A DNA stretch of 48,578 nucleotides, from positions 1 through 48,578 of the IMG/VR virus record IMGVR_UViG_3300046468_000496, one strand, 5' to 3'. The stretch's first letter is position 1. Each line of letters opens with the position of its first letter. Below the pieces are notes generated by a model. It searched no databases, had not been told where the DNA came from, and saw nothing but the letters and a program-made list of their open reading frames with translations. Below are positions 4,232-48,049 of the stretch, piece by piece. Source of the stretch: a virus. Made by a program: the position numbers and the translations under genes.

Positions 4232-4357
4232 TGAATATCAACAACTTATCAATTTTTGGTAAAGATACAAACCAATTTCCCAACCCGTTGATACTCAAAG
4301 CCTTAAAATCCTGTACAAATCTCCAAAACCTGATATAATATACATATAAGATTGATT
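4232..4357 (+). promoter_or_regulatory. cassette-type promoter 3, upstream of the CobS-like gene
   Basis: Full copy of the cassette: the TTGAATATCAA half-site pair followed by TTATCAATTTTT, then CCCGTTGATACTCA, AAAATCCTGTACAAA, core promoter TGTACA (4312-4317), 16-bp spacer and extended TATAAT (4334-4339). There are exactly 18 bases to the ATG, and the leader block ATAAGATTGATT differs from the other copies by one base. It fills the gap between the VWA and AAA+ genes, so the two partners have separate but matching promoters. Confidence 0.75.
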
Positions 4358-18440: not shown

Positions 18441-18569
18441 ATTGATAGTCAAAGAATTATCAATTTTTAGGCATATGGGTGGGAAAAGCCCTAAGCCACT
18501 GAGTATCAACGGGTTAAAGTCCTGTACAACATGGTGATTCTATGTTATAATATATACATAAGATTAATT
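18441..18569 (+). promoter_or_regulatory. cassette-type promoter 4
   Basis: Full copy: TTGATAGTCAA followed by TTATCAATTTTT (about 18441-18469), then GAGTATCAACGGGTT, TAAAGTCCTGTACAA, core promoter TGTACA (18523-18528), 17-bp spacer and TATAAT (18546-18551). There are exactly 18 bases to ATG 18570, including ATAAGATTAATT. Here the GTTGATACTC half site is in inverted orientation relative to copies 2 and 3. Confidence 0.75.
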
Positions 18570-23594: not shown

Positions 23595-23901
23595 TTTACC
23601 CGCATACAAATTAGTTGAAAAGCAAAATGTTGATTTCTATGGCTTTCAAATTACCGAAGGAGAATATAAAGATGTTGTTTATTACTATGGTGAAGTAAAA
23701 ATCGAAGAAGACCCTGAAGAGGATGAAGCTATATTAAACTTCAATTATCAGATTGACAATGGGAATGAACAGTATAGTATAAAGGAATTGGAAGATTCCA
23801 TCGGTTTCAATAATTTGATGGGAGATATATTGGCATCAGTTTTAGATAAAGAAGACGAAGAAGAATATGGCGAAGAACCTACAGAAGATAATACTCAGTA
23901 A
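23587..23901 (+). CDS. conserved acidic protein between uvsX and gp41
   Basis: 104 residues. Blocks AYKLVEKQNVDFYGFQITEG and YYYGEVKIEEDPEEDEA suggest a small beta domain; the C-terminus is strongly acidic (DKEDEEEYGEEPTEDN). The strong RBS AGGAGG (23575-23580) fits ATG 23587 better than 23584. It overlaps gp41 by 35 bases. Marine T4-like phages keep a protein of this size here; function unknown. Confidence 0.7.
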   Translation: MDNLPAYKLVEKQNVDFYGFQITEGEYKDVVYYYGEVKIEEDPEEDEAILNFNYQIDNGNEQYSIKELEDSIGFNNLMGDILASVLDKEDEEEYGEEPTEDNTQ

Positions 23902-25225
23902 TTTATTACACAATGAACAATTCACACGAAAAGCATTACCACATATCAAGGTTTCTTACTTTGAAGATGAATATGTTCCTGTATATAAACTGATATTATC
24001 ATTCATTGGTTCTTACAATAAACTACCTAATCCTTCTGCACTTGAGATTGAATTTCAGCAGTCGGATGATGTGACAAGAAAAGATGCGAATGAGGTTGTT
24101 ACCCTCATTAAGAGTCTTGAAGAAAAAGAAGAGGTCGATGAAGAATGGTTGACCGATTCTACCGAGAAATGGTGCAAAGATCGTGCCGTGTATCTCGCCA
24201 TAATGGAATCAATCCACATCATTGATGGTAAATCGAAAGATAGAAGCGAAGGTGCCATACCCGAAATTCTTTCCGATGCTCTTGGTGTTTCATTCGATTC
24301 AAATGTTGGACACGATTATCTTGAGAATGCAGAAGAAAGATTTGACTTCTATCATCTGAAAGAAGACAAGTTTGCATTCGACCTTGAGAAATTCAATGAG
24401 ATCACAAAGGGTGGTGTTAGCAGAAAAACATTGAACATCATCTTAGCAGGAACTGGTGTGGGTAAATCTTTGGCTATGTGTCATTTCGCCTCTGCCGCTC
24501 TTGCTCAAGGTCAGAATGTTCTCTATATCACTCTTGAGATGGCAGAAGAAAAGATTGCCGAGAGAATTGATGCAAATCTTTTCGACATCGATATCAAAGA
24601 CATTGAGAATATGCCTAAGAAAACCTTTGATAATAAGGTGCAAAAGATTCAATCAAAGACCAATGGTAAATTGATCATCAAAGAATATCCTACTGCCGCG
24701 GCTCATACAGGTCATTTCCGTGCACTTCTAGATGAATTGAAACTAAAGAAAGACTTCAAGCCCGATGTAATCTTCATTGACTATCTGAACATCGCTGCTT
24801 CTTCTCGCATGAAAGGACTAGGTGGTTCGATCAATTCGTATACTTATATCAAAGCAATCGCTGAGGAACTTCGTGGTCTTGCCGTGGAGTTCAATTTACC
24901 AATCTGGTCAGCAACTCAAGTGACTCGTACAGGATTCGGAAATACAGATGTTGAGATTACAGACACATCTGAATCATTCGGACTTCCTGCCACTGCCGAT
25001 TTGATGTTGGCTCTGATTTCAACCGAGCAACTTGAGGGTATGAACCAATTGATGGTTAAACAACTCAAGAACAGATACAATGATCCAACTCAGAACAAGA
25101 GATTCATTGTCGGAATTGATCGGGCAAAGATGAGATTATATGATGTCGAGGATTCTGCACAGACACTCTCTAATGAGAATCAGTCTCAACAGACAGATTC
25201 AGATTATTCATCATTCAAGATATAG
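23867..25225 (+). CDS. 41: replicative DNA helicase (gp41, DnaB-like)
   Basis: 452 residues (T4: 475). RecA-fold helicase with Walker A AGTGVGKSLAM (about residue 193), the YITLEMAEEKIAERIDANL H1a motif, Walker B VIFIDYLNI, the SATQVTRTGFGNTDVEITD segment with the glutamine switch, and the arginine finger in FIVGIDRAKMRLY. It unwinds DNA ahead of the fork with a primase. The Ser/Gln-rich end (NENQSQQTDSDYSSF) is a probable flexible tail. Confident. Confidence 0.95.
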   Translation: MAKNLQKIILSNLLHNEQFTRKALPHIKVSYFEDEYVPVYKLILSFIGSYNKLPNPSALEIEFQQSDDVTRKDANEVVTLIKSLEEKEEVDEEWLTDSTEKWCKDRAVYLAIMESIHIIDGKSKDRSEGAIPEILSDALGVSFDSNVGHDYLENAEERFDFYHLKEDKFAFDLEKFNEITKGGVSRKTLNIILAGTGVGKSLAMCHFASAALAQGQNVLYITLEMAEEKIAERIDANLFDIDIKDIENMPKKTFDNKVQKIQSKTNGKLIIKEYPTAAAHTGHFRALLDELKLKKDFKPDVIFIDYLNIAASSRMKGLGGSINSYTYIKAIAEELRGLAVEFNLPIWSATQVTRTGFGNTDVEITDTSESFGLPATADLMLALISTEQLEGMNQLMVKQLKNRYNDPTQNKRFIVGIDRAKMRLYDVEDSAQTLSNENQSQQTDSDYSSFKI

Positions 25226-25267: not shown

Positions 25268-25702
25268 ATGATTGATATTGAGGCTATTGGTGGGAGAAAG
25301 AAACTGAGAGAAGAGGTGGAAGATGCCACTTTCTTTTTCCTAAAGAAATTATTACCTCGGATAAAAAACATCGAGATCAACATTGTCTTAAAAAGAGGAC
25401 TGAAAGAAAAAGAAGGTCTATATGGTGATTGTATTTGGGAAGATACCAATCATAGACCACGGGTATTCACAATAAGAATGGATTCGGCGGTCGAACATGA
25501 TCTGATTATGGATACCCTTGCGCATGAAATGATTCATGTGAAACAATATGCAAGAGGCGAACTAGTGGATTGTGTCAGAAAAGCTGGTTATAGCAGATGG
25601 AAAGGCAAATTCTACCCTTGGAATGGTAAAGCAGAACCTTGGGAAAAAGAGCCTTGGAAGCGTTCTAAAAAATTATATGAAGAGTGGAAATCTTATAAAT
25701 AG
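25268..25702 (+). CDS. SprT-like zinc metallopeptidase domain protein
   Basis: 144 residues. LAHEMIHVKQYARGEL carries the HExxH zinc motif about residue 92-96 with the following helix typical of SprT-like and related phage proteins; the later PWEKEPW segment occupies the place where a third ligand is usually supplied. Could process a protein or bind DNA-protein crosslinks as SprT/Spartan proteins do. The late box for the next gene overlaps its stop codon. Confidence 0.7.
   Translation: MIDIEAIGGRKKLREEVEDATFFFLKKLLPRIKNIEINIVLKRGLKEKEGLYGDCIWEDTNHRPRVFTIRMDSAVEHDLIMDTLAHEMIHVKQYARGELVDCVRKAGYSRWKGKFYPWNGKAEPWEKEPWKRSKKLYEEWKSYK
25694..25701 (+). promoter_or_regulatory. late promoter box opening the virion-related block
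   Basis: TATAAATA overlapping the SprT-like stop codon, 24-33 bases before the candidate ATGs at 25726 and 25735. It marks the switch to a long run of virion-type genes. Confidence 0.7.
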
Positions 25703-25734
25703 ATGAAAGACCTTCATTTAATTTTATGGGAACT

Positions 25735-27543
25735 ATGCTATCATTTAAAGACTACAAAGAATTTTCGGATATAATCCTTGAAGCAACTGTGAGCGCTGGT
25801 AAATATGGGCCAGGTTCACTTTTTACTTTAAAGACAGATAAGATATCAGCCTTTGAAAATAAGGTAGGAGATAAATTAAAATTACCATCAAGCCCTGTCT
25901 TTAGTAAATTAGATGCCACTAAGATACCGAGTGATGCTCTAATTTTTGGTGATAGTTCTCAGCCACTCAGAGCTGCATTTGAGATTCTCGATGCGCCTGA
26001 TGGAAAATCAGTAGGTTCATTTGCTTGGCATGAAAAGGCAGTTGATAATTATTTCAATGGATTAAAATTAGGTTCAGATATCAATTGGGGTAAAGATACT
26101 CCTACACTCGAAACTGTTCAAGCACTTGGTGTATATTATAAAGATGTCGAAGCCGATGCAAACAACCGCCAAAAGGTCATTGATAATATAAAAAGTATCT
26201 TGAGTAATGGTCAAGATTGGGATTCAAAGGGTAAATCAAACCTCATATCTAAGTTCGATACAATGACATCAAAGAATTTTGCTGAGATGATTGGTCTTAT
26301 AGCCGGAATGGGAGACTTCATGCCTCTTGTAAAATTTAAGCCAAATATCATTCACGGTAGAATCAATGATTACTATGCGGCAGAAGAACAGAACGACAAT
26401 GTTGCGATAACAGGTGTTAAGGCTAATACAGCAGATATGATCATCTCATCAGCCGATGCGAATAAAACAATTGAGGCGATGAAAACCGACACATTCACCT
26501 TTGATAAAAAAGGTATTATCACTGGAGAAAAGAGTAAAATCAATCTGATTCAAGTTTCATTAAAGAAATCCGCAGACAAAGCTCAGTTAGGTAAGGTAAC
26601 AGCATATATCATTCAGAAATATGGATTACCATCATATGATGATTATTTCACAGACATTGTTAGTGAATCTTTCCAAATGAATGAAGGCGTGTTTGATATT
26701 TTCAAAGCAGCTGCCGAAAAGGTAAAAGGTTTATATTTAAGGGTATCAAAGGCATTACGAAACTTCGCAGGAAAGGTAACTGGCAGATTTAAGAAAGCCG
26801 CCAAATCAGAAAAGAAATCTGTATTCTCTAGATATCAGAAGATATTCGGTCTAGATAAAGCAGATATGTTAATGATGGAGCAATACATCGAAGGTGATAA
26901 ACTTCTGATTGAAAAGAAAGTAGTAGGAAATCTTAATAGTAAACTTGAGAAGATCAAAATTTCTGATGCAAATAAACTAGTCAAAGAAGTTCAAAATAAG
27001 AGAAATGGAGTTATAAAACTATATGATACAAAAGATTATCTTATCCATAAAACAGGAACAGAGATAACAAATTTCAAATCATCAAAAGAGATCAACATTG
27101 ATATCGTTTCTAAACTACTATCAAATTCTTATTCATTATCATCTGTCGAATCAATCATCGGCACAACAAATACAGATGAGATATTAAATTCTGTGATTGA
27201 TATGCATAAAGAAGTTTACTTCGGCAAAACATCTCTTCCATTATATAAAGTATATGGAAAATCAAGTGGTAAATCGTATGAATACCTTGGATCAGCCGAA
27301 GACTATGTTGAAAAGAAAAAGGCTAAATTGAAAGATGTTCAATTTCCTATCTCGGGTATCCGACTCAATACACAAGATAAAAAATATCTAAATATTGACT
27401 TATATGTTGTTAGTGATATCGAAGAGAATAAAATTTACTACACGGCATTTCGCACAGGTACAAACGCATCAGGTAGATTCTCTTTTAATTTTGAAGGAAC
27501 TAAAAAGATACCTTATGATAAATTTATCAAATTCTTAAAGTAA
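25735..27543 (+). CDS. large late protein with capsid-targeting-like N-terminus
   Basis: 602 residues from ATG 25735 (605 from 25726). It begins MLSFKDYKEFSDIILEA, resembling the T4 internal-protein targeting peptide MKTYQEFIAEA, and has an ILE|A site matching the T4 prohead-protease rule (L/I)-x-E. The rest is lysine-rich with no recognised domain; residues about 330-370 are strongly basic (KVTGRFKKAAKSEKKS). Predicted to be a core or internal virion protein that could enter the host with DNA. Identity unknown; late expression is well supported. Confidence 0.65.
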   Translation: MLSFKDYKEFSDIILEATVSAGKYGPGSLFTLKTDKISAFENKVGDKLKLPSSPVFSKLDATKIPSDALIFGDSSQPLRAAFEILDAPDGKSVGSFAWHEKAVDNYFNGLKLGSDINWGKDTPTLETVQALGVYYKDVEADANNRQKVIDNIKSILSNGQDWDSKGKSNLISKFDTMTSKNFAEMIGLIAGMGDFMPLVKFKPNIIHGRINDYYAAEEQNDNVAITGVKANTADMIISSADANKTIEAMKTDTFTFDKKGIITGEKSKINLIQVSLKKSADKAQLGKVTAYIIQKYGLPSYDDYFTDIVSESFQMNEGVFDIFKAAAEKVKGLYLRVSKALRNFAGKVTGRFKKAAKSEKKSVFSRYQKIFGLDKADMLMMEQYIEGDKLLIEKKVVGNLNSKLEKIKISDANKLVKEVQNKRNGVIKLYDTKDYLIHKTGTEITNFKSSKEINIDIVSKLLSNSYSLSSVESIIGTTNTDEILNSVIDMHKEVYFGKTSLPLYKVYGKSSGKSYEYLGSAEDYVEKKKAKLKDVQFPISGIRLNTQDKKYLNIDLYVVSDIEENKIYYTAFRTGTNASGRFSFNFEGTKKIPYDKFIKFLK

Positions 27544-27545
27544 TA

Positions 27546-28073
27546 ATGAATAATCATCTAGAAAAGGCATTTAGATTTCACAGAGAGAATAAGATTCCTC
27601 TGGCACATAATATTTTTCGACCACATTCGATACATTACTATCATTTGTTCGAACACGCTAGACAACTGCAAGAGACATACAAACCCTTGAGTGAGTTTGA
27701 TGAATATCTATTATCAACAGACATTGGTAAATTTGGTCTCTACGAAGGCGAACAGGTTCCACTTGATCATCCATTCATTAATGAAGCAGAATATCAAGGC
27801 ACTGAGGTTGAATTGAATAAACCCAAAAGAGGTGGTAAAAAGAAATTTTATGTCTATGTAAAGAATGATAAGGGCAATGTAATCAAGGTTCAGTTTGGTG
27901 ATACATCTGGTCTCAAGGCTAAGATCGATGATCCCGCAGCTCGAAAAGCGTTTTCATCAAGACATAACTGTCCTGCAAAGAAAGATAAAACAAAAGCAGG
28001 TTACTGGTCATGCAATCTTCCACGATATGCATCCGAACTTGGCTTAAAAGGAGGAGGAAATTTTTTCTGGTAA
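27546..28073 (+). CDS. conserved late protein with DUF5872-like C-terminal domain
   Basis: 175 residues. The C-terminal half is distinctive: KKKFYVYVKNDKGNVIKVQF, SRHNCPAKKDKTKAGYWSC, LPRYASELGL. I recall this block (DUF5872-like) from marine T4-like phages, where it recurs alone or attached to head-region proteins; its function is unknown. The Cys/Lys/Trp pattern might bind zinc or nucleic acid. Adjacent genes are one or two bases away, so one late operon. Confidence 0.7.
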   Translation: MNNHLEKAFRFHRENKIPLAHNIFRPHSIHYYHLFEHARQLQETYKPLSEFDEYLLSTDIGKFGLYEGEQVPLDHPFINEAEYQGTEVELNKPKRGGKKKFYVYVKNDKGNVIKVQFGDTSGLKAKIDDPAARKAFSSRHNCPAKKDKTKAGYWSCNLPRYASELGLKGGGNFFW

Positions 28074-28074
28074 C

Positions 28075-28848
28075 ATGAGTAAACCATATAAAGAACAAAT
28101 CAAAGATAATATCAAGTACCGTGAGTTTGATCCTATGATTGAAACTGATGAACTCGTTTGGCATCGTGATAGAGAAAATAGAACCATTACTGTCTTAGAA
28201 GGTGAAGGATGGTTCTTTCAAATGGATAATGAAATTCCAAAGGAGATGTGTGCTGGGGATATTCTCGAAGTGAAAAAGATGGATTACCACAGACTATATA
28301 AATCTGGCACAACACCACTTAAAATTTCAATCGAAGAAAAGTATATGAAATCATTTAAACAATTTAACGAATCCAAGATCGACGAAAAAGTTGATATAAA
28401 GAAAGCTTTGAAGAAAGTTAAGGGATTGTCTAATAAACAAACTGAATTACTTCTTACTTTACCCGCAGGAGTTATAACATCTGTTGTAAGTCAATTGGGA
28501 ATGCTTGTTGCTGATAATGATCCATTAGAAGAAACTGTTTTAAACACTATAATATCTAAAGCTAAAAATGATATGAAAGAAGATTCTCTAAAAGAAGCAT
28601 CATACCCAATCGATATTAAACAGTGGCAATTCTCTCATGGTGCAAAGCAACCAAAAGAAAAGGGAAATTGGATATTTGATTATGAAGCAGCTCTAGGCGC
28701 TCGAGATGGATCGATAGGATTACAGAAAGATACCTTTATGGCAAAGGCAGGATCGACATTCAGAAATGCCACCAAACAGTTATTCAAGTTCTTACAAAAA
28801 GAACTTAAGGTAAAACCCAAAGATGTTAAAATTACACTAGCACCATAA
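28075..28848 (+). CDS. cupin-like domain fused to a capsid-targeting-tagged domain
   Basis: 257 residues. Residues about 15-90 form a small cupin-like barrel (ELVWHRDRENRTITVLEGEGW, then GDILEVKKMDYHRL), a protein normally stand-alone in marine T4-like phages. At residue 91 a new start-like sequence begins, MKSFKQFNESKIDE, identical in DNA for 22 bases to the start of the gene at 30084. The rest is a Lys-rich helical domain plus a C-terminal alpha/beta part, with an SLKE|A prohead-protease-like site. Either a fused gene or two products, the second from the internal ATG at 28345. Possibly a capsid-delivered protein. Confidence 0.65.
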   Translation: MSKPYKEQIKDNIKYREFDPMIETDELVWHRDRENRTITVLEGEGWFFQMDNEIPKEMCAGDILEVKKMDYHRLYKSGTTPLKISIEEKYMKSFKQFNESKIDEKVDIKKALKKVKGLSNKQTELLLTLPAGVITSVVSQLGMLVADNDPLEETVLNTIISKAKNDMKEDSLKEASYPIDIKQWQFSHGAKQPKEKGNWIFDYEAALGARDGSIGLQKDTFMAKAGSTFRNATKQLFKFLQKELKVKPKDVKITLAP

Positions 28849-30084
28849 ATGGACTCATTTAAACAGTATATATCAGAAAATAAGGGAGGTAAGAATACTC
28901 ACATGACACACATCGAAGATCGTGTGATCTATGGTGGTGTTACCGGGGCCAGAGAGGCTATCTTTGCTTTAAGATCGATGAGAGATATGTTAGCTGGTAA
29001 CTCTAGTACCTCTCACGATGTAACTGTTAAATGGGATGGTGCGCCAGCTGTCTTCGCTGGAATCGACCCATCTGATGGGCAATTCTTTGTTGCTAAAAAA
29101 GGAATCTTTAATAAAGAACCCAAGGTATATAAATCTGAAGCAGATGTCAAGGCTGATACATCAGGTGATCTTGCAGATAAATTAATAATCGCATACAACG
29201 AATTAAAGAAATTAGGAATCAAGGGCGTTATTCAAGGTGACATAATGTTTACCTCTGGTGATCTCGCTAAAGAATCTATTGAAGGTCAATCTTATTACAC
29301 ATTTCAACCAAATACAATTGTTTATTCTATTCCTGTCGATTCTAGTCTCGGCAAGCAGATAGCAAAAGCAAAGATTGGTGTGGTCTTTCATACAACATAC
29401 GAAGGTGATTCATTCGAAAACATGAAAGCCAAATTCAAGGTTGATATGACCAAATTAAAGAAGGCTGACTCTGTTTGGTATCAAGATGCTGAATATAATG
29501 ATGTGAGTGGCAAGGCTACTTTCACCGCGGCGGATACAAATGAAGTTAATAATGCTCTAACAAATGCTGGAAAGATATTTCAGAAGATTGCAGGATCGAC
29601 TCTCCGCCAGATTGAAAAGAATCAATCTCTTGCACAACAATTCGAAACTTTTAATAATACACTAGTTCGTAAAGGAGAAAGAATAGCATCTCCTACAAAA
29701 CATGTCAATGATCTGATCGCTTGGTTCGAGGCTAAATTCGAAAAGGAAAGATCACAAAGAAAATCTACAAAGGGCAAAGAAGGAGTCAATAAGAAGGAGA
29801 AAGAACTCATGAGTTTCTTCTCATCTAAAAATAGAAAGAACCTTGAACTTGTATTTGAACTTCAAAATGCAATCGTGGATGCGAAACTAATTATTATAAA
29901 TAAACTAGATAAGGTGAAACAGATGAAAACATTTGTTCGCACCAAAAATGGATTCAAGGTTACAGGCTCGGAAGGGTTTGTTGCTATCGATAAGACAAGT
30001 AATGGAGCAGTGAAACTTGTTGATAGACTTGAATTCTCTACAAACAATTTTAGTAAAGATGTAATAAAAGGATGGGAACGTTAA
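28849..30084 (+). CDS. ligase-like nucleotidyltransferase (DUF6267 type)
   Basis: 411 residues starting MDSFKQYISEN, a capsid-targeting-like peptide. Three motifs suggest a covalent nucleotidyltransferase of the DNA/RNA ligase superfamily: VKWDGAPAVF (motif I, K61-x-D-G), GVIQGDIMF (motif III-like), and EGFV (375-378) followed 14 residues after its Glu by VKLVDR (motifs IV-V). The gap between motifs I and IV is larger than in typical ligases, implying an insertion. Marine T4-like phages carry relatives annotated as DUF6267 or hypothetical. A role in sealing RNA or DNA, possibly after delivery with the virion, is inferred. Confidence 0.7.
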   Translation: MDSFKQYISENKGGKNTHMTHIEDRVIYGGVTGAREAIFALRSMRDMLAGNSSTSHDVTVKWDGAPAVFAGIDPSDGQFFVAKKGIFNKEPKVYKSEADVKADTSGDLADKLIIAYNELKKLGIKGVIQGDIMFTSGDLAKESIEGQSYYTFQPNTIVYSIPVDSSLGKQIAKAKIGVVFHTTYEGDSFENMKAKFKVDMTKLKKADSVWYQDAEYNDVSGKATFTAADTNEVNNALTNAGKIFQKIAGSTLRQIEKNQSLAQQFETFNNTLVRKGERIASPTKHVNDLIAWFEAKFEKERSQRKSTKGKEGVNKKEKELMSFFSSKNRKNLELVFELQNAIVDAKLIIINKLDKVKQMKTFVRTKNGFKVTGSEGFVAIDKTSNGAVKLVDRLEFSTNNFSKDVIKGWER

Positions 30085-32309
30085 TGAAATCATTTAAACA
30101 ATTTAGAGAAGAGAAGGTAAAATCAGTTGTATTTACATTTGGTCGGTTCAATCCACCTACAACTGGCCATGAAAAACTATTGATCAAAGTTGCTTCTATT
30201 GCTATAGGCAATGATTATAGAATCTTTGCTTCTCAATCAGACGATAAGAAAAAGAATCCTCTTAAATATAAAGAGAAGGTTCAATTGATGCGTAAGTTAT
30301 TTCCTAAGTATGGTCGTAATATCATACTTGATAAGAAGATTAAAAATTCTTTAGATGCTCTTGTATATCTTTATGATGAAGGGTATACGCAAGCAACTAT
30401 GGTTGTTGGCGCTGATAGAATTTCAGATTTTAAGAAATTGCTAACAAAGTATAATGGTGTAAAGGCTCGCCACGGTTTCTATGATTTTCCAGATGGAATA
30501 CAAATTGTATCTGCAGGAGAACGAGACCCTGATGCAGATGATGTCTCTGGTATGTCTGCATCTAAGATGAGAGCAGCAGCAACCGAAGGTGATTTCAAAG
30601 CATTCGCAAACGGCTTACCTAAATCTTACGGTGATAAATTAGGCGTATTCAATCTTCTTCGCAAGAGAATGGGATTGAAAGAGATGACAAGTTTTCGTAA
30701 ACACATTGAATTGAAGACAACAAACATCCGAGAAAGATATATTGCAGATGAGGTTTTCCTAGTAGGTGATGAATTCTTAACTTTGGAAGGTAATATTCAT
30801 TCTGTTGTAGAAAGATGCACAAACTATATTCTTGGTTCAGATGATAAGAAATATTTCCTTGATAAGATTGTTGAAGTAAAACAAGATAAGGAAATTGAAG
30901 ATCGCAAAGGTTCTCAACCAGCCAAGTATTTTGCAAAAGATGCAGATGGTGATGAGATGGCTAAATCTACAAAACAGAAAAGAGCCGCACACTTTAAGAA
31001 GAAATCTACCAAGCCCGCTCCTGGCGATGCAACGGCAAAAACAAAACCTTCACAACATACTAAGAAATTCAAAGATATGTTTGGTGAAAAGGTTGAATAT
31101 TTTTCTATGCCAGAACTTAAGAAGCATCTGAAAAAAGAATATGGATCAAAGGCTTCTTCTCTTAGAATTTTAAAAGTTGGTGGAGGTGTATCAATCCAAA
31201 CACCAGGTGGACAGGAACTAGAAAGATATAATAGAGTTCCTAAATTAGGTTACACACTCGCCGAAGACAAAAATCCAGTCGTAGATACTGAAGATAGTGT
31301 AGAAGAGGGCGTAAATGATCCAGCGATTTTCAAAGCCGTATTCCTAGCAGGTGGACCTGGATCTGGTAAATCATTTACTGTTGGTCAAACAGGATTGAGT
31401 GCTCTTGGTCTTAAACTAGTTAATTCTGATCCTGCCTTTGAAAAAGCAATCAAGAAAGCAGGAGGAGTAATGGAACCAGAGTTTATCTTCTCACCAAAAG
31501 GTCAAGAGATAAGGAGAGGAGCGAAAGCACTCACGGGCAAACAGATGGACCTTTATGTCTCTGGTCGCCTCGGACTCACCATTGATGGAACAGGAAAAGA
31601 TTTCAATAAGATTAAAGGTCAAGCCGAACAACTAAAAGCAATAGGCTATGATGTAGCTATGATCTTTGTTAATACCGATCTTGAGACTGCTATCAAAAGA
31701 GACCAGGAAAGAAGTAGAACTGTTGGAGCAAGTGCGGTTACAAAGATGTGGCAAGACGTTCAAAAGAATATTGGTAAATTCCAAGCATTCTTTAGAAATC
31801 AATTTGTTGTTGTGGATAATTCAATTGGTTCTAATTGGAAAAAGGCAACAACTGATGCCTACAAAAAGATGAAGAAGTTTGCTGATCAAGAGCCAAGATC
31901 AAAGGTTGCTCAAGATTGGATTAAAAGTCAATACGCTAAATCTGAAGGTACAATGGACCCCGAAATGATTAAACTTCTGACTAAAGCAATGAAAGAGATT
32001 CCAGGTTCGAAGAATCAGAAAGGTGTTGTTAAGAAATTAAATGCTCTTAGAAAGAAAGCCAAACTTGAGCCAATACCGATTGATGAGGACACAAAGAAAG
32101 GTCTTCAGAAGAAAGCAGATAAAACAGGCATTCCTTATGGCATTCTCAAAAAGGTATTTGATCGTGGCGTAGCTGCTTGGAAAACAGGACACCGCCCTGG
32201 TACAACCGCAACTCAATGGGGCTATGCTAGAGTGAATTCCTTCGCAACTAAGAGTAAAGGTACTTGGGGTGGCGCAGATAAAGATTTAGCAGCAAAGGTA
32301 AGAGGATGA
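30084..32309 (+). CDS. NMNAT-like nucleotidyltransferase / zeta-like P-loop kinase fusion
   Basis: 741 residues, multidomain. N-terminal tag MKSFKQFREEK; residues about 13-190 are a HIGH-type nucleotidyltransferase (FTFGRFNPPTTGHEKL with T-x-G-H, MVVGADR, and SGMSASKMRAAA as the IS-x-T-x-x-R-like motif), like NMN adenylyltransferases. Then a basic linker with a KRAAHFKKK and KPSQHTKKFKDMFGE block, and at about 420 a P-loop kinase: FLAGGPGSGKSF, LVNSDPAF, typical of zeta-toxin or polynucleotide kinase-like proteins. The C-terminus (about 660-741, KTGHRPGTTATQWGYARV) resembles DUF5824. It could act on NAD or nucleic acid in the host. The start at 30084 overlaps the upstream stop by one base. 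Confidence 0.75.
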   Translation: MKSFKQFREEKVKSVVFTFGRFNPPTTGHEKLLIKVASIAIGNDYRIFASQSDDKKKNPLKYKEKVQLMRKLFPKYGRNIILDKKIKNSLDALVYLYDEGYTQATMVVGADRISDFKKLLTKYNGVKARHGFYDFPDGIQIVSAGERDPDADDVSGMSASKMRAAATEGDFKAFANGLPKSYGDKLGVFNLLRKRMGLKEMTSFRKHIELKTTNIRERYIADEVFLVGDEFLTLEGNIHSVVERCTNYILGSDDKKYFLDKIVEVKQDKEIEDRKGSQPAKYFAKDADGDEMAKSTKQKRAAHFKKKSTKPAPGDATAKTKPSQHTKKFKDMFGEKVEYFSMPELKKHLKKEYGSKASSLRILKVGGGVSIQTPGGQELERYNRVPKLGYTLAEDKNPVVDTEDSVEEGVNDPAIFKAVFLAGGPGSGKSFTVGQTGLSALGLKLVNSDPAFEKAIKKAGGVMEPEFIFSPKGQEIRRGAKALTGKQMDLYVSGRLGLTIDGTGKDFNKIKGQAEQLKAIGYDVAMIFVNTDLETAIKRDQERSRTVGASAVTKMWQDVQKNIGKFQAFFRNQFVVVDNSIGSNWKKATTDAYKKMKKFADQEPRSKVAQDWIKSQYAKSEGTMDPEMIKLLTKAMKEIPGSKNQKGVVKKLNALRKKAKLEPIPIDEDTKKGLQKKADKTGIPYGILKKVFDRGVAAWKTGHRPGTTATQWGYARVNSFATKSKGTWGGADKDLAAKVRG

Positions 32310-33586
32310 TACAATTTAACGAATATTTAGAGATAGGTACAAAACAGATATCTTATAAATACAAGAAAGATACTCCTGGCGAAAAAACAACTATGAAAAG
32401 AGAAAAATTTATACCCAAAAATGTAATGGATGAAGATGTGCCTGCCTTTATGGGTGCTCTTGCTCAAGCCGCGAAAGACGGCAAGAAAGATTTTAAATTC
32501 GGAGATAAGACCTACAAGGTCAAGTTAAAGAAAGATGTAGCTGATAAGATCACCAAGAATATGGATGAATCAAAGGATTTTGAACCCCATATGATGTATG
32601 ATCCCAAGACAGGTAAAGAATATAAGGCAGAAAAGCCTGAAGACCATGAAAGAATGGCTAAATTGGGTTATACACATGAGAAGCCCGAAATGAAATCTGA
32701 AGCCACAGAATCTGATTATATGAAATTATCAGATAAAGAATTAGATGAACTTCTTACAATTTTTGAAAATGTCCATAGATCAACTTCTAAGGATGTTATG
32801 AAAGCATTAAGCTTAGAAAAGAAAAGAAGATCACTCAAAGAAGATCAAAATTTAACACAAAGTAAAAAGGAAAAAACTAAAATGTATTTTAAAGATAAGA
32901 AGACTCAGAAAGTCGCAGAAGCGGTGAAAAGGGTAATGAAAAGTAAAGAAGAGAGTAACGCATTCACTGCTGCCGCGGCTGAAGCTAAACTTGCTGGCAA
33001 AACAGAATTCGAATTTGAGGGTAAGAAATATCCAGTCAAGATCAAGGATGGCGCTGCCAAAGCAATCGCTAAGGAATCTGTTGAACTTCAAGAAGCAAGT
33101 TTCGGTGATATCGAAAAGATAATTAAGTGGGCGGATAAGTATTTCAAAGACAAGCGTAAGTTCAGACACCCATCGACTGATATTTCTAAGAAATATGGCA
33201 CTGCATTTATCAATCTTACTATTATGAACGTCATCATTATTCGACTTGGTGGTAAAAAAGGAATAGTAGTTACTCACGATGATCGCACAAATGGTAGTGG
33301 TAAAGATTATGAAGAACACTTTTCTAATGCAAACGGTGTTATTAAGTTTGTTGAAAAGAAATATAACGAAATGCCAAAGGACGAATCCGTTGAAGAATCA
33401 ATTGAAGAATCAGTTGAACTTGAAGAAGGCAAATTTGATAAACTAGAAAAGAAACTTGGACGTATTAATCCAGAATCTTTAGAAGCCGTCATGGGTGGAA
33501 AGATTAAATTAGATAAAGCAGAAAAGAAAGAGTTCGATGAATTTATGAAGGGTGTCCGAAAGATGTTTGCATCCAAACAATATTAA
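32306..33586 (+). CDS. putative prohead core/internal protein with repeats
   Basis: 426 residues, very lysine- and glutamate-rich. Begins MIQFNEYLEIG. Two copies of a basic module occur, FMGALAQAAKDGKKDFKFGDKTYKVKLK (near residue 48) and FTAAAAEAKLAGKTEFEFEGKKYPVKIK (near residue 220), suggesting internal duplication. Sites LQE|A and LEE|G match the prohead-protease rule. The MYDPKTGKEYKAEKPEDHERM block recurs in head-associated proteins of marine T4-like phages, as I recall. A scaffold or core role is likely; no enzyme motif is seen. Confidence 0.6.
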   Translation: MIQFNEYLEIGTKQISYKYKKDTPGEKTTMKREKFIPKNVMDEDVPAFMGALAQAAKDGKKDFKFGDKTYKVKLKKDVADKITKNMDESKDFEPHMMYDPKTGKEYKAEKPEDHERMAKLGYTHEKPEMKSEATESDYMKLSDKELDELLTIFENVHRSTSKDVMKALSLEKKRRSLKEDQNLTQSKKEKTKMYFKDKKTQKVAEAVKRVMKSKEESNAFTAAAAEAKLAGKTEFEFEGKKYPVKIKDGAAKAIAKESVELQEASFGDIEKIIKWADKYFKDKRKFRHPSTDISKKYGTAFINLTIMNVIIIRLGGKKGIVVTHDDRTNGSGKDYEEHFSNANGVIKFVEKKYNEMPKDESVEESIEESVELEEGKFDKLEKKLGRINPESLEAVMGGKIKLDKAEKKEFDEFMKGVRKMFASKQY

Positions 33587-33590
33587 GAAC

Positions 33591-34601
33591 ATGAATATTT
33601 CAGAAATTAATCAAAGGAATCTATCACTGCTTGATGTAAATCAGCTCAAGGCATTCCTTGATATCTTTAAAGGTGTATCTAATCCAAAAGCCAAGGTTGT
33701 TATAAAAGACCTGACTCGCGAACTTGGAACCCGCAAGATGGAAGCAGTTGAAGAAGCATCTGTTAAAGATATCATCAAAGCAGTTAAAGCAGCTGCCAAA
33801 AAGATTGGCGGAATCATTGACAAGGTGTTCGATGATAAAGGATTTCAAGATGCTTATGCTAAATACGTCGATAATCCTAAAGATAAAAATAGACTGAAAA
33901 AAATTCAAGACTATACAAATGGTATGCTTGGTGATATGTCTGAAGAATCTGATCTTGAAGAAGCAGTTAAGTTTTGGACAGTTACTATTACTAAGAAAGC
34001 CGGAAAACTTTTCAAAGGTCAGACTGTGGATGTAAAAGCCCGCAACTCTGCGGAAGCCATTAAGAAAGGTATTAAGCAGATGAAAGGCAATCCAATGACA
34101 GTTCCAAGTGGTAGCGTAGATGCGGTGTTAGGCGAAGCGACTGATCTTGAAGAAGCCGCACTTCCATTCAAGGAATTAGAAAAGTCTTGGATCAGAACAA
34201 AGGGTAATGATAAGAAAAGAGCAAAACTTATTAAGAAGCATAAACTCAAGCCCCTCATCTCTAATGTAAGACAAGGCTCAATTAAACTCGGCCCCATGAA
34301 TGATCTTAAAATGAAAGATGGTAATCATACCATGGCAGGTCTCGACGCAGAAGGCGAACTGATTTTTATAAGTAATAATCCTGTAAGAATTCATTATCCA
34401 TCCAATACTAAAGATCGACCAAAAGGTACAGAGATGAAAGAAAATACCTTACAGCACCAAAGACTTGTCAGAGTCGTAGAAGTTGCTCTTGGAGAAAGAC
34501 CCGAAAATACTAATGACTTTATTAAAGAATCTAATATTGATTTAACAATGACACCATCATCTATCCAAAAGGCATACAAAGAATTTAATATAAAGAAATA
34601 A
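33591..34601 (+). CDS. putative prohead core-associated protein
   Basis: 336 residues starting MNISEINQRN, 5 bases after the preceding gene. Charged helical N-terminal half, with two LEE|A sites (DLEEAV, DLEEAA) that match a prohead-protease pattern, followed by a more globular part (KFWTVTITKKAGKLFKGQ). Its C-terminal part has a DGNHTMAGLDAEGELIFISNN segment, possibly beta-rich. Not recognised; interpreted as virion core from context. Confidence 0.6.
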   Translation: MNISEINQRNLSLLDVNQLKAFLDIFKGVSNPKAKVVIKDLTRELGTRKMEAVEEASVKDIIKAVKAAAKKIGGIIDKVFDDKGFQDAYAKYVDNPKDKNRLKKIQDYTNGMLGDMSEESDLEEAVKFWTVTITKKAGKLFKGQTVDVKARNSAEAIKKGIKQMKGNPMTVPSGSVDAVLGEATDLEEAALPFKELEKSWIRTKGNDKKRAKLIKKHKLKPLISNVRQGSIKLGPMNDLKMKDGNHTMAGLDAEGELIFISNNPVRIHYPSNTKDRPKGTEMKENTLQHQRLVRVVEVALGERPENTNDFIKESNIDLTMTPSSIQKAYKEFNIKK

Positions 34602-34625
34602 TTTAATACTCATACCAAAAAAAAT

Positions 34626-34886
34626 ATGGCCGAAAAAACCGACCTTCAGAGAATTGGAGATGCTGTGGTTTCCCTTGCGAGAGCAGAGGAAAAACTATCA
34701 TCTATCGATATAACAGTTAAATCCACTCTTTCAAAACTTGAAGCCATTGAAGAACGAGTAAGAGTGGTTGAACAAGAAACACATGACAATACAAATACTG
34801 TAATGCTTGTGAATAGAGTTTTTTGGACAATCTTAACAACAATAATCACCGCCGGCATCGGCACACTATTCTTCCTAATCCGCTAA
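34626..34886 (+). CDS. coiled-coil plus single TM protein (holin-like or membrane anchor)
   Basis: 86 residues. Conserved-type start MAEKTDLQRIGDAVVSLARAEEKL, a coiled coil, then one C-terminal TM segment (VFWTILTTIITAGIGTLFFLI). Marine T4-like phages carry similar short proteins of unknown function (DUF7201-like). N-in, C-tail-anchored topology would fit a holin/antiholin or spanin-like role, but no direct evidence exists. Confidence 0.65.
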   Translation: MAEKTDLQRIGDAVVSLARAEEKLSSIDITVKSTLSKLEAIEERVRVVEQETHDNTNTVMLVNRVFWTILTTIITAGIGTLFFLIR

Positions 34887-34901
34887 AATGTAAATCCCAC
34901 T

Positions 34902-35546
34902 ATGAAAAATACTATGAAATATTTGCCTTTTGTTATAGGTCTAGTTCTCGGATGTTATTATATCCTTACATTGAATCTGGGGAAGACTGTTACTCTTGCC
35001 GCATATGAATATAACCCAGATAATGAGGCAAAACATTTAAATCCCCCAACAGAAGGATTCGGTATCTTTAAGAAAAAAGGTGATGAGATTCCAGAACCAG
35101 GTCCTGTAAAGACCAGAGCAAACTTGATGGTTGATATACTGGCAAATAGCAATCTGGCTCCAGCAAATATCAGATTCAGAGATAGTAAATATAATGAAAT
35201 CTCAAAGAAAGAATATAAGACTATTATAAAAGCATGGGAATGGTACATATTTGATAATGATATAATGTTTATCTTCGAAATCTTTGATTGCGATAATTAT
35301 TCTAATGCTTTCAAAGCCTTTGTTGAATTATATAATCATAAATGGGGAACAAATATAGCCGTCGGCAAAGTAGTGGTTCATCAGAAAGAAGAATTTGGTT
35401 TTGTTGAAGGAGCACTCGGTGCATACCACATGCTCAATGTGATTTATGTAGAAGGACAATTCATCGTGGTCGAACCACAAAACTCAGTTTCAACAGAATT
35501 ATTTAAATATCCTAATAACCAAAATTTATTAGAAATAGAAATATGA
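34902..35546 (+). CDS. membrane- or lipid-anchored transglutaminase-like cysteine protease
   Basis: 214 residues. N-terminal MKNTMKYLPFVIGLVLGC is either a signal anchor or a lipoprotein signal (VLGC resembles a lipobox). The C-terminal part has FDCDNYSNAFKAFVELYN, then GALGAYHMLNVIYVEG and IVVEPQN: Cys, His and Asn/Asp in the order and spacing of bacterial transglutaminase-like cysteine proteinases. It would act in the periplasm or at a membrane. Adjacent to a TM protein, it may take part in lysis, envelope alteration or exclusion of other phages. The catalytic triad is inferred by eye. Confidence 0.55.
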   Translation: MKNTMKYLPFVIGLVLGCYYILTLNLGKTVTLAAYEYNPDNEAKHLNPPTEGFGIFKKKGDEIPEPGPVKTRANLMVDILANSNLAPANIRFRDSKYNEISKKEYKTIIKAWEWYIFDNDIMFIFEIFDCDNYSNAFKAFVELYNHKWGTNIAVGKVVVHQKEEFGFVEGALGAYHMLNVIYVEGQFIVVEPQNSVSTELFKYPNNQNLLEIEI

Positions 35547-35896
35547 GATCATTTTCAGACTTTTACAACGAAGCTCTTACTGTTCAACAGAGGCGTAAGA
35601 GAGCAGTCTTAATGAAGAGGCTGGCACCGAAGATTGCACTCAAGAGAAAGATTGCGATGAAGAGAAAGGCTAACCCAGAGAAATTAAAATCAAGATCAGA
35701 TAAAGCCGCAAAAAATTTACTTAGATCAAAATTAGCAAAGACCGCACCATATTCACAATTGTCCTTTGCACAAAAAGCAATGATTGATAAGAAGCTAGAT
35801 AAAAAGAAAGCATTAATTTCAAAGATATCCAAGAAGCTTCTTCCTTCAATTAAACAAAAAGAAAAAGAAAGAATTAAAAATAAAAACCCGCAATGA
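35543..35896 (+). CDS. very basic conserved late protein (internal-protein-like)
   Basis: 117 residues, roughly one third Lys/Arg. Begins MRSFSDFYNEALTVQQRRKR, again a capsid-targeting-like peptide with a YNE|A site, then basic helical repeats (LMKRLAPKIALKRKIAMKRK). I recall near-identical proteins in many marine T4-like genomes, without known function. The charge and tag fit a DNA-condensing internal head protein similar in character to T4 internal proteins. It overlaps its neighbours by 4 bases on both sides. Confidence 0.7.
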   Translation: MRSFSDFYNEALTVQQRRKRAVLMKRLAPKIALKRKIAMKRKANPEKLKSRSDKAAKNLLRSKLAKTAPYSQLSFAQKAMIDKKLDKKKALISKISKKLLPSIKQKEKERIKNKNPQ

Positions 35897-36249
35897 AAAA
35901 TATAAAAGATACAATAACAGAGATTCTCCTTGAAGAAGAAAAACAGGAATCAAAAGCTGCTTATGATTTCAAACAGATTCATAGTGTAGAAATATTTGAT
36001 GGCATCGAAGAAGCCGTCAAACCTGAAGTCTTTGTTAAAGGCGGAAATACAAAGGTATCAGCAAGTGATGTTGACGATATCCTTTCTAAGATTTTTACAA
36101 AGAAGGCACTCGCTAAGAAAGTAGAAGATTCTAAAGCATATAAGACTGGCTTCAAATCAAAAGGTCGAGGTAGAAATCCATATAAGGTAGATACCGCCGA
36201 CTATCATCTATTCATTCTAGGTGTACAAGCAGAGGAACTTGATAGATAA
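35893..36249 (+). CDS. hypothetical late protein, 118 aa
   Basis: Begins MKNIKDTITEILLEEEK with an LLE|E site, then an acidic middle and a basic C-terminal part (FKSKGRGRNPYKVDTADYH). Overlaps the basic protein gene by 4 bases and the next gene by 1. Not recognised; could be a small head or core component. Confidence 0.6.
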   Translation: MKNIKDTITEILLEEEKQESKAAYDFKQIHSVEIFDGIEEAVKPEVFVKGGNTKVSASDVDDILSKIFTKKALAKKVEDSKAYKTGFKSKGRGRNPYKVDTADYHLFILGVQAEELDR

Positions 36250-36563
36250 TGGATACACTTGGAGCAACATTATCTATTACACCTGATGGCACCGCGATTT
36301 CAACAGCGCTTGATGAAGTTGATGCAAACACTATCAATTCATCAACTCGCGTAATGGCAGTAAATGGTGATGATAAAAAGAAAGTAGTTTTTATTAATGA
36401 TGCTTCTGATAACATGATAGCTTCCTTTACTCTACCTCGATACAACTCTATAACTTTTATTAAAAAATCAACCGATAAAGTTTACGGTCAAAACTATGCG
36501 CCTGGTAAAGGCTCCGCAACCAATCTAACATTCCAACAAGTAATTTCCCGACATGCTGATTAA
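36249..36563 (+). CDS. small virion-type beta protein, paralogue A
   Basis: 104 residues. Core RVMAVNGDDKKKVVFIND, then IASFTLPRYNSITFIKKSTDKVY. The protein at 36553 shares the same blocks (VVNGSSAKRVIFLTD, GSFTLPRYAMVKVVKKSTEKLH), so these are tandem duplicates. Short beta-sandwich-like proteins of this pattern occur in marine T4-like phages as structural proteins, in my recollection. Possibly decoration or tail-fibre-associated. Confidence 0.65.
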   Translation: MDTLGATLSITPDGTAISTALDEVDANTINSSTRVMAVNGDDKKKVVFINDASDNMIASFTLPRYNSITFIKKSTDKVYGQNYAPGKGSATNLTFQQVISRHAD

Positions 36564-36843
36564 TCCACAATCCACTCTCATTACTGCAGACAAAGCAGCT
36601 AATTCAAATAATGTCTCCGACGCAAATTGCGTATTAGTCGTAAACGGCTCTTCCGCCAAACGTGTGATATTTTTAACCGATGCTAATGACGCAGCAATTG
36701 GAAGCTTTACTCTTCCTAGATATGCAATGGTTAAAGTAGTTAAAAAATCAACTGAAAAATTACATGCCGCAAATAATTTAGCGGGTGACGGCAATGTTGG
36801 AGATATTCTAGTTACATTTACAAAAATAGGATTTACTGATTAG
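36553..36843 (+). CDS. small virion-type beta protein, paralogue B
   Basis: 96 residues; starts inside the end of paralogue A (11-base overlap). Shares the V-V-N-G, FLTDANDAAIGSFTLPRY and KKSTEKL blocks with it at perhaps 35-40% identity by eye over about 50 residues. The N-terminus (LINPQSTLITADKAANSNN) is variable between copies. Same tentative structural role. Confidence 0.65.
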   Translation: MLINPQSTLITADKAANSNNVSDANCVLVVNGSSAKRVIFLTDANDAAIGSFTLPRYAMVKVVKKSTEKLHAANNLAGDGNVGDILVTFTKIGFTD

Positions 36844-47950: not shown

Positions 47951-48049
47951 GCAGGTCTGAAAAGTCTTTTGTAACCCCTTGATAGGCAACGGGTTCTCTA
48001 TGTTGACAAATCGTGGATTTTATGGTATAATATACATATAAGATTAATT
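47924..48049 (+). promoter_or_regulatory. cassette-type promoter 5
   Basis: Contains TTGATAATCAAC followed by TTGTAAAATTTT (divergent from TTATCAATTTTT), a dyad AACCCCTTGATAGGCAACGGGTT-like element (about 47973-47995, one mismatch), TTGACA (48003-48008) in place of TGTACA, 17-bp spacer, TATAAT (48026-48031). Exactly 18 bases to ATG 48050 with ATAAGATTAATT. The first block overlaps the end of the previous gene. Confidence 0.7.

Follow-up and report, generated by a model that had tools for sequence, protein, structure and literature searches.

A T4-type capsid-targeting-like tag on unrelated, often enzymatic proteins of marine T4-like phages

A ten-residue N-terminal tag shared by otherwise unrelated proteins of marine T4-like phages is very probably a T4-type capsid-targeting sequence (CTS), which would have spread in marine Kyanoviridae onto a wider, enzyme-rich cargo and is also used inside fusion proteins. 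The stretch in which we studied it, hereafter the window, is the 48,578-nt (48.6-kb) IMG/VR fragment IMGVR_UViG_3300046468_000496, from a T4-like marine myovirus. Its tagged genes form a block downstream of a gp41-type gene, with one 144-aa gene in between, an order also found in HTVC008M and in record G002. The closest named relatives of the block are phage C48C1 (DUF6267 protein 57% identical) and Pelagibacter phage HTVC008M, both filed under Kyanoviridae. A sequence-only reading of the window had listed six peptides resembling the CTS of the T4 internal proteins (IPs) and had proposed packaging in the head. Both the T4-like tag and head packaging are strongly supported by the cross-recognition of the T4 IPs, by the conservation of residues 4, 7, 8 and 10, by mass spectrometry (MS) of cyanophage virions and by a late promoter. 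The six peptides are indeed all in frame, but that at 28345 is not an N-terminus (it starts at residue 91 of ORF 28075-28848, after a cupin-like domain), and those at 25735 and 30084 begin at the second in-frame ATG of ORFs opening at 25726 (MGT-MLSF) and 30072 (MGTL-MKSF).

That the tag is real, beyond chance, is decided by the relatives. We retrieved a first sample of 80 IMG/VR loci via DUF6267, and added further loci later. In the 80 loci many different bodies are preceded by M-x-[ST]-F-K-x-[YF]-[LI]-x-E, and the 241 distinct tagged proteins of the first and later loci make up 25 groups whose bodies have no detectable homology to one another. Chance probably explains two or three of these groups (short membrane-like proteins, one glycosyltransferase-like); judging from their sequences, the same 10-mer precedes at least 20 unrelated proteins. 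The frequency of the tag in these loci is biased upwards, because some search patterns contained tag residues; the breadth of bodies is unbiased.

The conservation of the tag follows that of T4. When DUF6267 relatives were aligned without any tag rule, the most informative positions were E10 (3.9 bits), F4 (3.7), Y/F7 (3.2) and L/I8 (2.6), the remaining columns, M1 excepted, reaching at most 2.0 bits. According to work on T4 mutants, residues 4 and 7 serve targeting and residues 8 and 10 processing by gp21 (PMC9026906; Mullaney and Black 1996 cited therein); that the top four of nine columns should be T4's functional four has a chance of 1 in 126, assuming all columns equal. E10 is present in 24/24 distinct DUF6267 tags, and L/I8 in 23/24; E10 is invariant across 27 sequences. 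The aromatic residues 4 and 7 are found in all five N-terminal tags of the window and in the internal copy. The strict cut-site pattern matches only 28849 in the window, and we therefore scored tags with a matrix built from marine tags only. Applied to 75 T4 genes, this matrix ranked IPI (MKTFKEFTST), IPII and IPIII (both MKTYQEFIAE) first to third. The five N-terminal tags of the window scored 11.9 to 20.0 and the next gene start 5.4, values that are not independent since the training set holds close relatives of the window; the T4 and cyanophage tests are independent. As a separate observation, T4 gene 57B (L102:23952-24410), which adjoins ipI, starts MMEFKDFSTG and has the fourth-best tag score of that T4 stretch.

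Upstream sequences point to late expression of the tagged cluster. A box of the TATAAATA type, the -10 box of T4 late promoters, lies 28-44 bases upstream in 11/14 homologous loci with several distinct upstream contexts, and also ahead of the first tagged genes of other families (L043, L030, L045); TATAAATAG is found likewise upstream of the HTVC008M portal gene. The number of TATAAATA boxes in the window (seven on the + strand, none on the - strand, 5.5 expected per strand) is uninformative, and it is their conserved place that is informative. The six best tags among the 162 genes of G002 (119 kb) stand in one 8.7-kb block adjoining gp41, while G001 has two tags at separate places and HTVC008M a weaker set, with four tag-like starts at 103.8-116.4 kb. 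The gp21 family was present in 4/8 records searched (G001-G004, of 146, 119, 59 and 80 kb), including the two longest, and is annotated in HTVC008M; it was not found in searched fragments of 51-68 kb.

Tagged proteins have been detected in particles. Cytidylyltransferase/NMNAT-like proteins, homologues of the 30072..32309 protein, are reported in virions of S-SM1 (PMC3037559), S-SCSM1 (PMC9602691), S-CREM2 (PMC10665884) and S-SZBM1 (PMC9146016). Their starts are CTS-like: MKKFSAFLNE|A in S-SM1, MKSFLQFLKE|A in S-SCSM1, MKNFSSFLTE|A in S-CREM2 and, with a tag shorter by one residue, MRFRQFIIE|A in S-SZBM1. In S-CREM2 (210 called genes), the N-termini with the five highest scores all belong to the 52-protein MS list (P = 6e-4, computed with 219 annotated genes and a matrix trained on other phages): a SAM hydrolase (MKDFDSFLEE), an APH-like kinase (VKRFDAFLTE), the cytidylyltransferase, gp136 (MQTFSMFFSE) and gp13 (MKDLHSFLTE). 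Pooling three proteomes by adding two tagged genes of S-SCSM1 and three of S-SZBM1, 7/10 tagged proteins were found by MS, where 1.9 would be expected (P = 6e-4), S-SZBM1 gp140 (offset tag) being counted post hoc; nearly all of this signal comes from S-CREM2, and S-SCSM1 and S-SZBM1 alone are not significant. Two further features of virion proteins were noted. S-SCSM1 gp93 (L096:31626-31835) carries a C-terminal tag-like KKRTFKEFLEYIE. A G-x-GGF[TS]..A..GPxAGYDP-like motif recurs close to the N-terminus of several small proteins, of which two are virion proteins, and resembles the gp23 region following its predicted cut; the carriers are in L089 (S-CREM2 gp160, gp23), L096 (S-SCSM1 gp97) and L095 (S-SM1 gp197).

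The tag could instead be an address to another site of assembly or replication, such as gp41/gp32 complexes or the membrane, the MS detections then reflecting co-purified abundant late proteins. The cluster adjoins gp41, and the authors of the S-CREM2 study themselves note possible co-purification (PMC10665884), a caveat that also counts against head packaging as such. However, cytidylyltransferases were reported in particles of four cyanophages by four separate studies, and the motif closes with L/I-x-E, the consensus of the T4 prohead protease, like the N-terminal region of cyanophage gp23 (LLTE|A, ILTE|A, FLAE|A), so that we regard this explanation as quite unlikely. A signal peptide was set aside because the tag, by reading of its sequence, is not hydrophobic.

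It is very unlikely that the shared start is a nucleotide-level feature, either a translation leader or a recombination patch for the swapping of bodies, rather than a protein signal. Bodies are exchanged right behind the tag, and a leader ATGGGAACT before the tag ATG is common to several tagged genes, as this explanation would have it. Yet F4, Y/F7, L/I8 and E10 are conserved as residues while their codons vary synonymously (TTT/TTC, TAT/TAC, GAA/GAG), and the motif persists in fusions devoid of its Met: in L024, L032 and L157, the cupin domain joins tag and DUF6267 directly, the Met being lost (..EEYPFKSFKDYISEASKAGKNTHM). These Met-less tags and varied codons together imply that selection acts on the peptide. 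The top scores of the T4 internal proteins within T4, despite their distance in sequence, and the tagged proteins of cyanophage virions also speak against a nucleotide-level feature. In other relatives the cupin-tag unit is constant, and the body after the tag varies or is absent. That the 28345 copy serves solely as an internal start of translation was set aside, since Met-less internal copies exist.

Within the window, the statistics are more modest. The start M-x-x-F-x-x-[FY] is found in 5/11 genes at 25.7-36.2 kb, and in 0/56 genes of the rest of the window. The broader M..[FYW]..[FYW] N-terminus occurs in 5/67 genes, all of them in the 11-gene region 25726-36249 (Fisher P = 5e-5, for a region chosen by the reader of the sequence). 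A chance origin, in which several late proteins share an aromatic-rich helix at their start by coincidence, may draw on the looseness of the pattern and on its presence at 6/354 internal Met (one of them 28345) against 5/67 gene starts (P = 0.019), but is scarcely credible in view of more than 20 unrelated bodies, the invariant E10, the cross-recognition of T4 and the proteome test.

Other observations weigh against a T4-type CTS. The cut site is complete (I/L8 and E10) in only 1/6 window copies, at 28849; the tags at 30084 and 35543 keep E10 but not I/L8. Some homologues are untagged, namely the DUF6267 proteins of S-SZBM1 and S-SM1, and gp21 was not found in the 48.6-kb window fragment. Three small or medium tagged proteins went undetected in the S-SCSM1 and S-SZBM1 proteomes, and the virion MS evidence comes from cyanophages.

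If the tag is a CTS of T4 type, it would bind a gp22-type scaffold core during late expression through aromatic residues 4 and 7, and any attached protein would thereby be built into the prohead. A gp21-type protease would then cut after E10, and the body would stay in the head until ejected along with the DNA. In this marine lineage the tag would have come to precede at least 20 bodies unrelated to one another, among them a histone-like basic protein, a cytidylyltransferase/NMNAT-kinase and, in one relative, an RNA ligase; it would also have been placed within fusion proteins, ahead of modules. We infer core binding, tag cleavage and ejection, as well as their occurrence in the window phage; injection of the tagged proteins is presumed by analogy with T4.

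The borders of some modules suggest, at the level of sequence, that they too may be cut by a protease. Counted by eye, the kinase module starts E|G in 33/33 distinct contexts, the E being either E10 of the tag (stand-alone) or the end of VEE/IEE/LEE (fused), and [LI]xE|A leads into the RHNC module in 22/22 distinct relatives; these counts are not independent, because the contexts are related sequences. The stand-alone RHNC module is often tagged (MKKFKQYIDE in C48C1). The (L/I)-x-E sites that the sequence-only reading had invoked fail as a general argument, since (L/I)xE[AGS] sites are not in excess in the tagged block (3.43 per 1000 residues vs 3.09 in other window genes); E10 and some module junctions are nonetheless conserved. 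More tentatively, the tag and the (L/I)xE junctions may form an open cargo-loading system, in which modules, single or in polyprotein-like fusions cut at their borders, are loaded into the head and delivered. If this were true, the phages would inject a kit of NAD-, kinase-, nuclease- and RNA-repair-type enzymes, together with the Cas9-like protein of S-CREM2. This virion protein (L086:7704-10313) has a tag-like internal stretch, LRFASFMAE|A, at residues 17-26, where no usual start codon is found.

Table 1. Features of the tagged block and its surroundings in the window
Feature	Position	Strand	Basis
gp41-type primase-helicase gene	23867..25225	+	blastn to cyanophage DNA primase/helicase
T4-type late promoter -10 box TATAAATA, ahead of first tagged gene	25694..25701	+	sequence
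605-aa protein, tag MLSFKDYKEF at 25735-25764	25726..27543	+	
Untagged gene, C-terminal RHNC-type module (phrog_7595) entered through INE|AEYQG	27546..28073	+	
Cupin-like domain, internal tag MKSFKQFNES (28345-28374), variable body	28075..28848	+	
DUF6267 protein, tag MDSFKQYISE|N (28849-28878), K61-W-D-G motif	28849..30084	+	Pfam E = 1e-104
Cytidylyltransferase/NMNAT-like domain, P-loop kinase and DUF5824, tag MKSFKQFREE (30084-30113)	30072..32309	+	
426-aa protein, tag MIQFNEYLEI, tag retained in close relatives	32306..33586	+	
Untagged neighbour, uncertain member of the set, with LEE|A and LGE|A motifs	33552..34601	+	
Very basic protein (32% K+R, 7% D+E), tag MRSFSDFYNE|A	35543..35896	+	
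118-aa protein, weak tag-like start MKNIKDTITE (score 5.4), membership uncertain	35893..36249	+	

Among the genes of the block, the first tagged protein has IILE|A at residues 13-17, counted from 25735, and in its family F4, Y7 and E16-A17 are invariant in 14 sequences (64-94% identical); its predicted structure was unusable (predicted local distance difference test, pLDDT, 42). The cupin-like domain matches Cupin_2 with E = 3e-4, below the Pfam cut-off. In the family of the basic protein, 19/22 distinct N-termini are tagged, including that of C48C1 (MLSFKQFVSE). Just beyond the block, two neighbouring genes (window 36249-36843) encode related small proteins that both match phrog_19805, a likely tandem duplication. 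Elsewhere in the window, an identical 19-base element GGGTTAAAGTCCTGTACAA stands at 1573-1591 and 18511-18529, immediately 5' of genes 1593 and 18531 (0 expected by chance), and a repeated promoter-like element GATATAATATACATATAAGAT is found near gene starts outside the tagged block, at 2031-2051, 4332-4352, 18544-18564 and 48024-48044; the latter is perhaps an early or middle promoter.

The sequence-only reading had also ascribed enzyme motifs to two of the proteins. For one of them this stands, the NMNAT/cytidylyltransferase, P-loop kinase and DUF5824 domains of the 30072..32309 protein being supported by sequence matches; its kinase module is entered through VEE|GVNDPAIF. The ligase label on the DUF6267 protein is supported by motifs only: KWDG, EGFV and VKxVDR do occur in ligase order, but DUF6267 found no ligase among PDB profiles and no match in a fold search with a model of pLDDT 75, and hhalign matched it only weakly to a tagged PF09414 ligase. 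A tagged RNA ligase is present in one relative (PF09414, E = 7e-9). Other tagged families may have nuclease and HAD-like motifs, judging by eye from their sequences.

Compared with known systems, the tag shares with T4 IPI, IPII and IPIII its ten N-terminal residues, the aromatic residues 4 and 7, and L/I8 with E10. As in T4, one tag precedes unrelated bodies, one of them strongly basic, and a gp21-type protease is encoded (in longer marine relatives). In contrast, the marine cargo consists of much larger, often enzymatic proteins, tags stand inside fusions as well, the cut-site residues of the window are looser, and the window proteins are known from genes alone. The virion NMNAT/cytidylyltransferases of the cyanomyoviruses S-SM1, S-SCSM1, S-CREM2 and S-SZBM1 have a homologous domain, a CTS-like start and detection in particles; the NMNAT genes of S-SM1 and S-SZBM1 lie near DUF6267, as in the window. 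They differ in being 286-409 aa long and matching the NMNAT part only, to which the window protein adds a fused kinase-DUF5824. Phage P1 offers a further parallel with DarB, whose N-terminal residues direct the protein and a reporter into the head; unlike the marine tag, the Dar proteins are without a shared consensus, and P1 appears to do without a separate scaffold (PMC9024508). The accessible parts of the cyanophage virion papers do not mention a targeting tag, and a literature search in which subscription journals were mostly out of reach found nothing linking capsid targeting with cyanophages beyond a passing word in a T4 review.

The tag makes it possible to predict, by a rule of sequence, which proteins abundant marine T4-like phages carry in their particles. 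It accounts for the puzzling, repeated detections in cyanophage virions of NMNAT-like enzymes, of a kinase, of a SAM hydrolase and of a Cas9-like protein, which authors had been unable to tell from contamination. Because most of the proteins so labelled were found in the virions of a sequenced cyanophage, the particles of such phages probably contain a kit of ready-made enzymes, and the question of which enzymes marine phages inject becomes testable by re-reading existing mass spectra.

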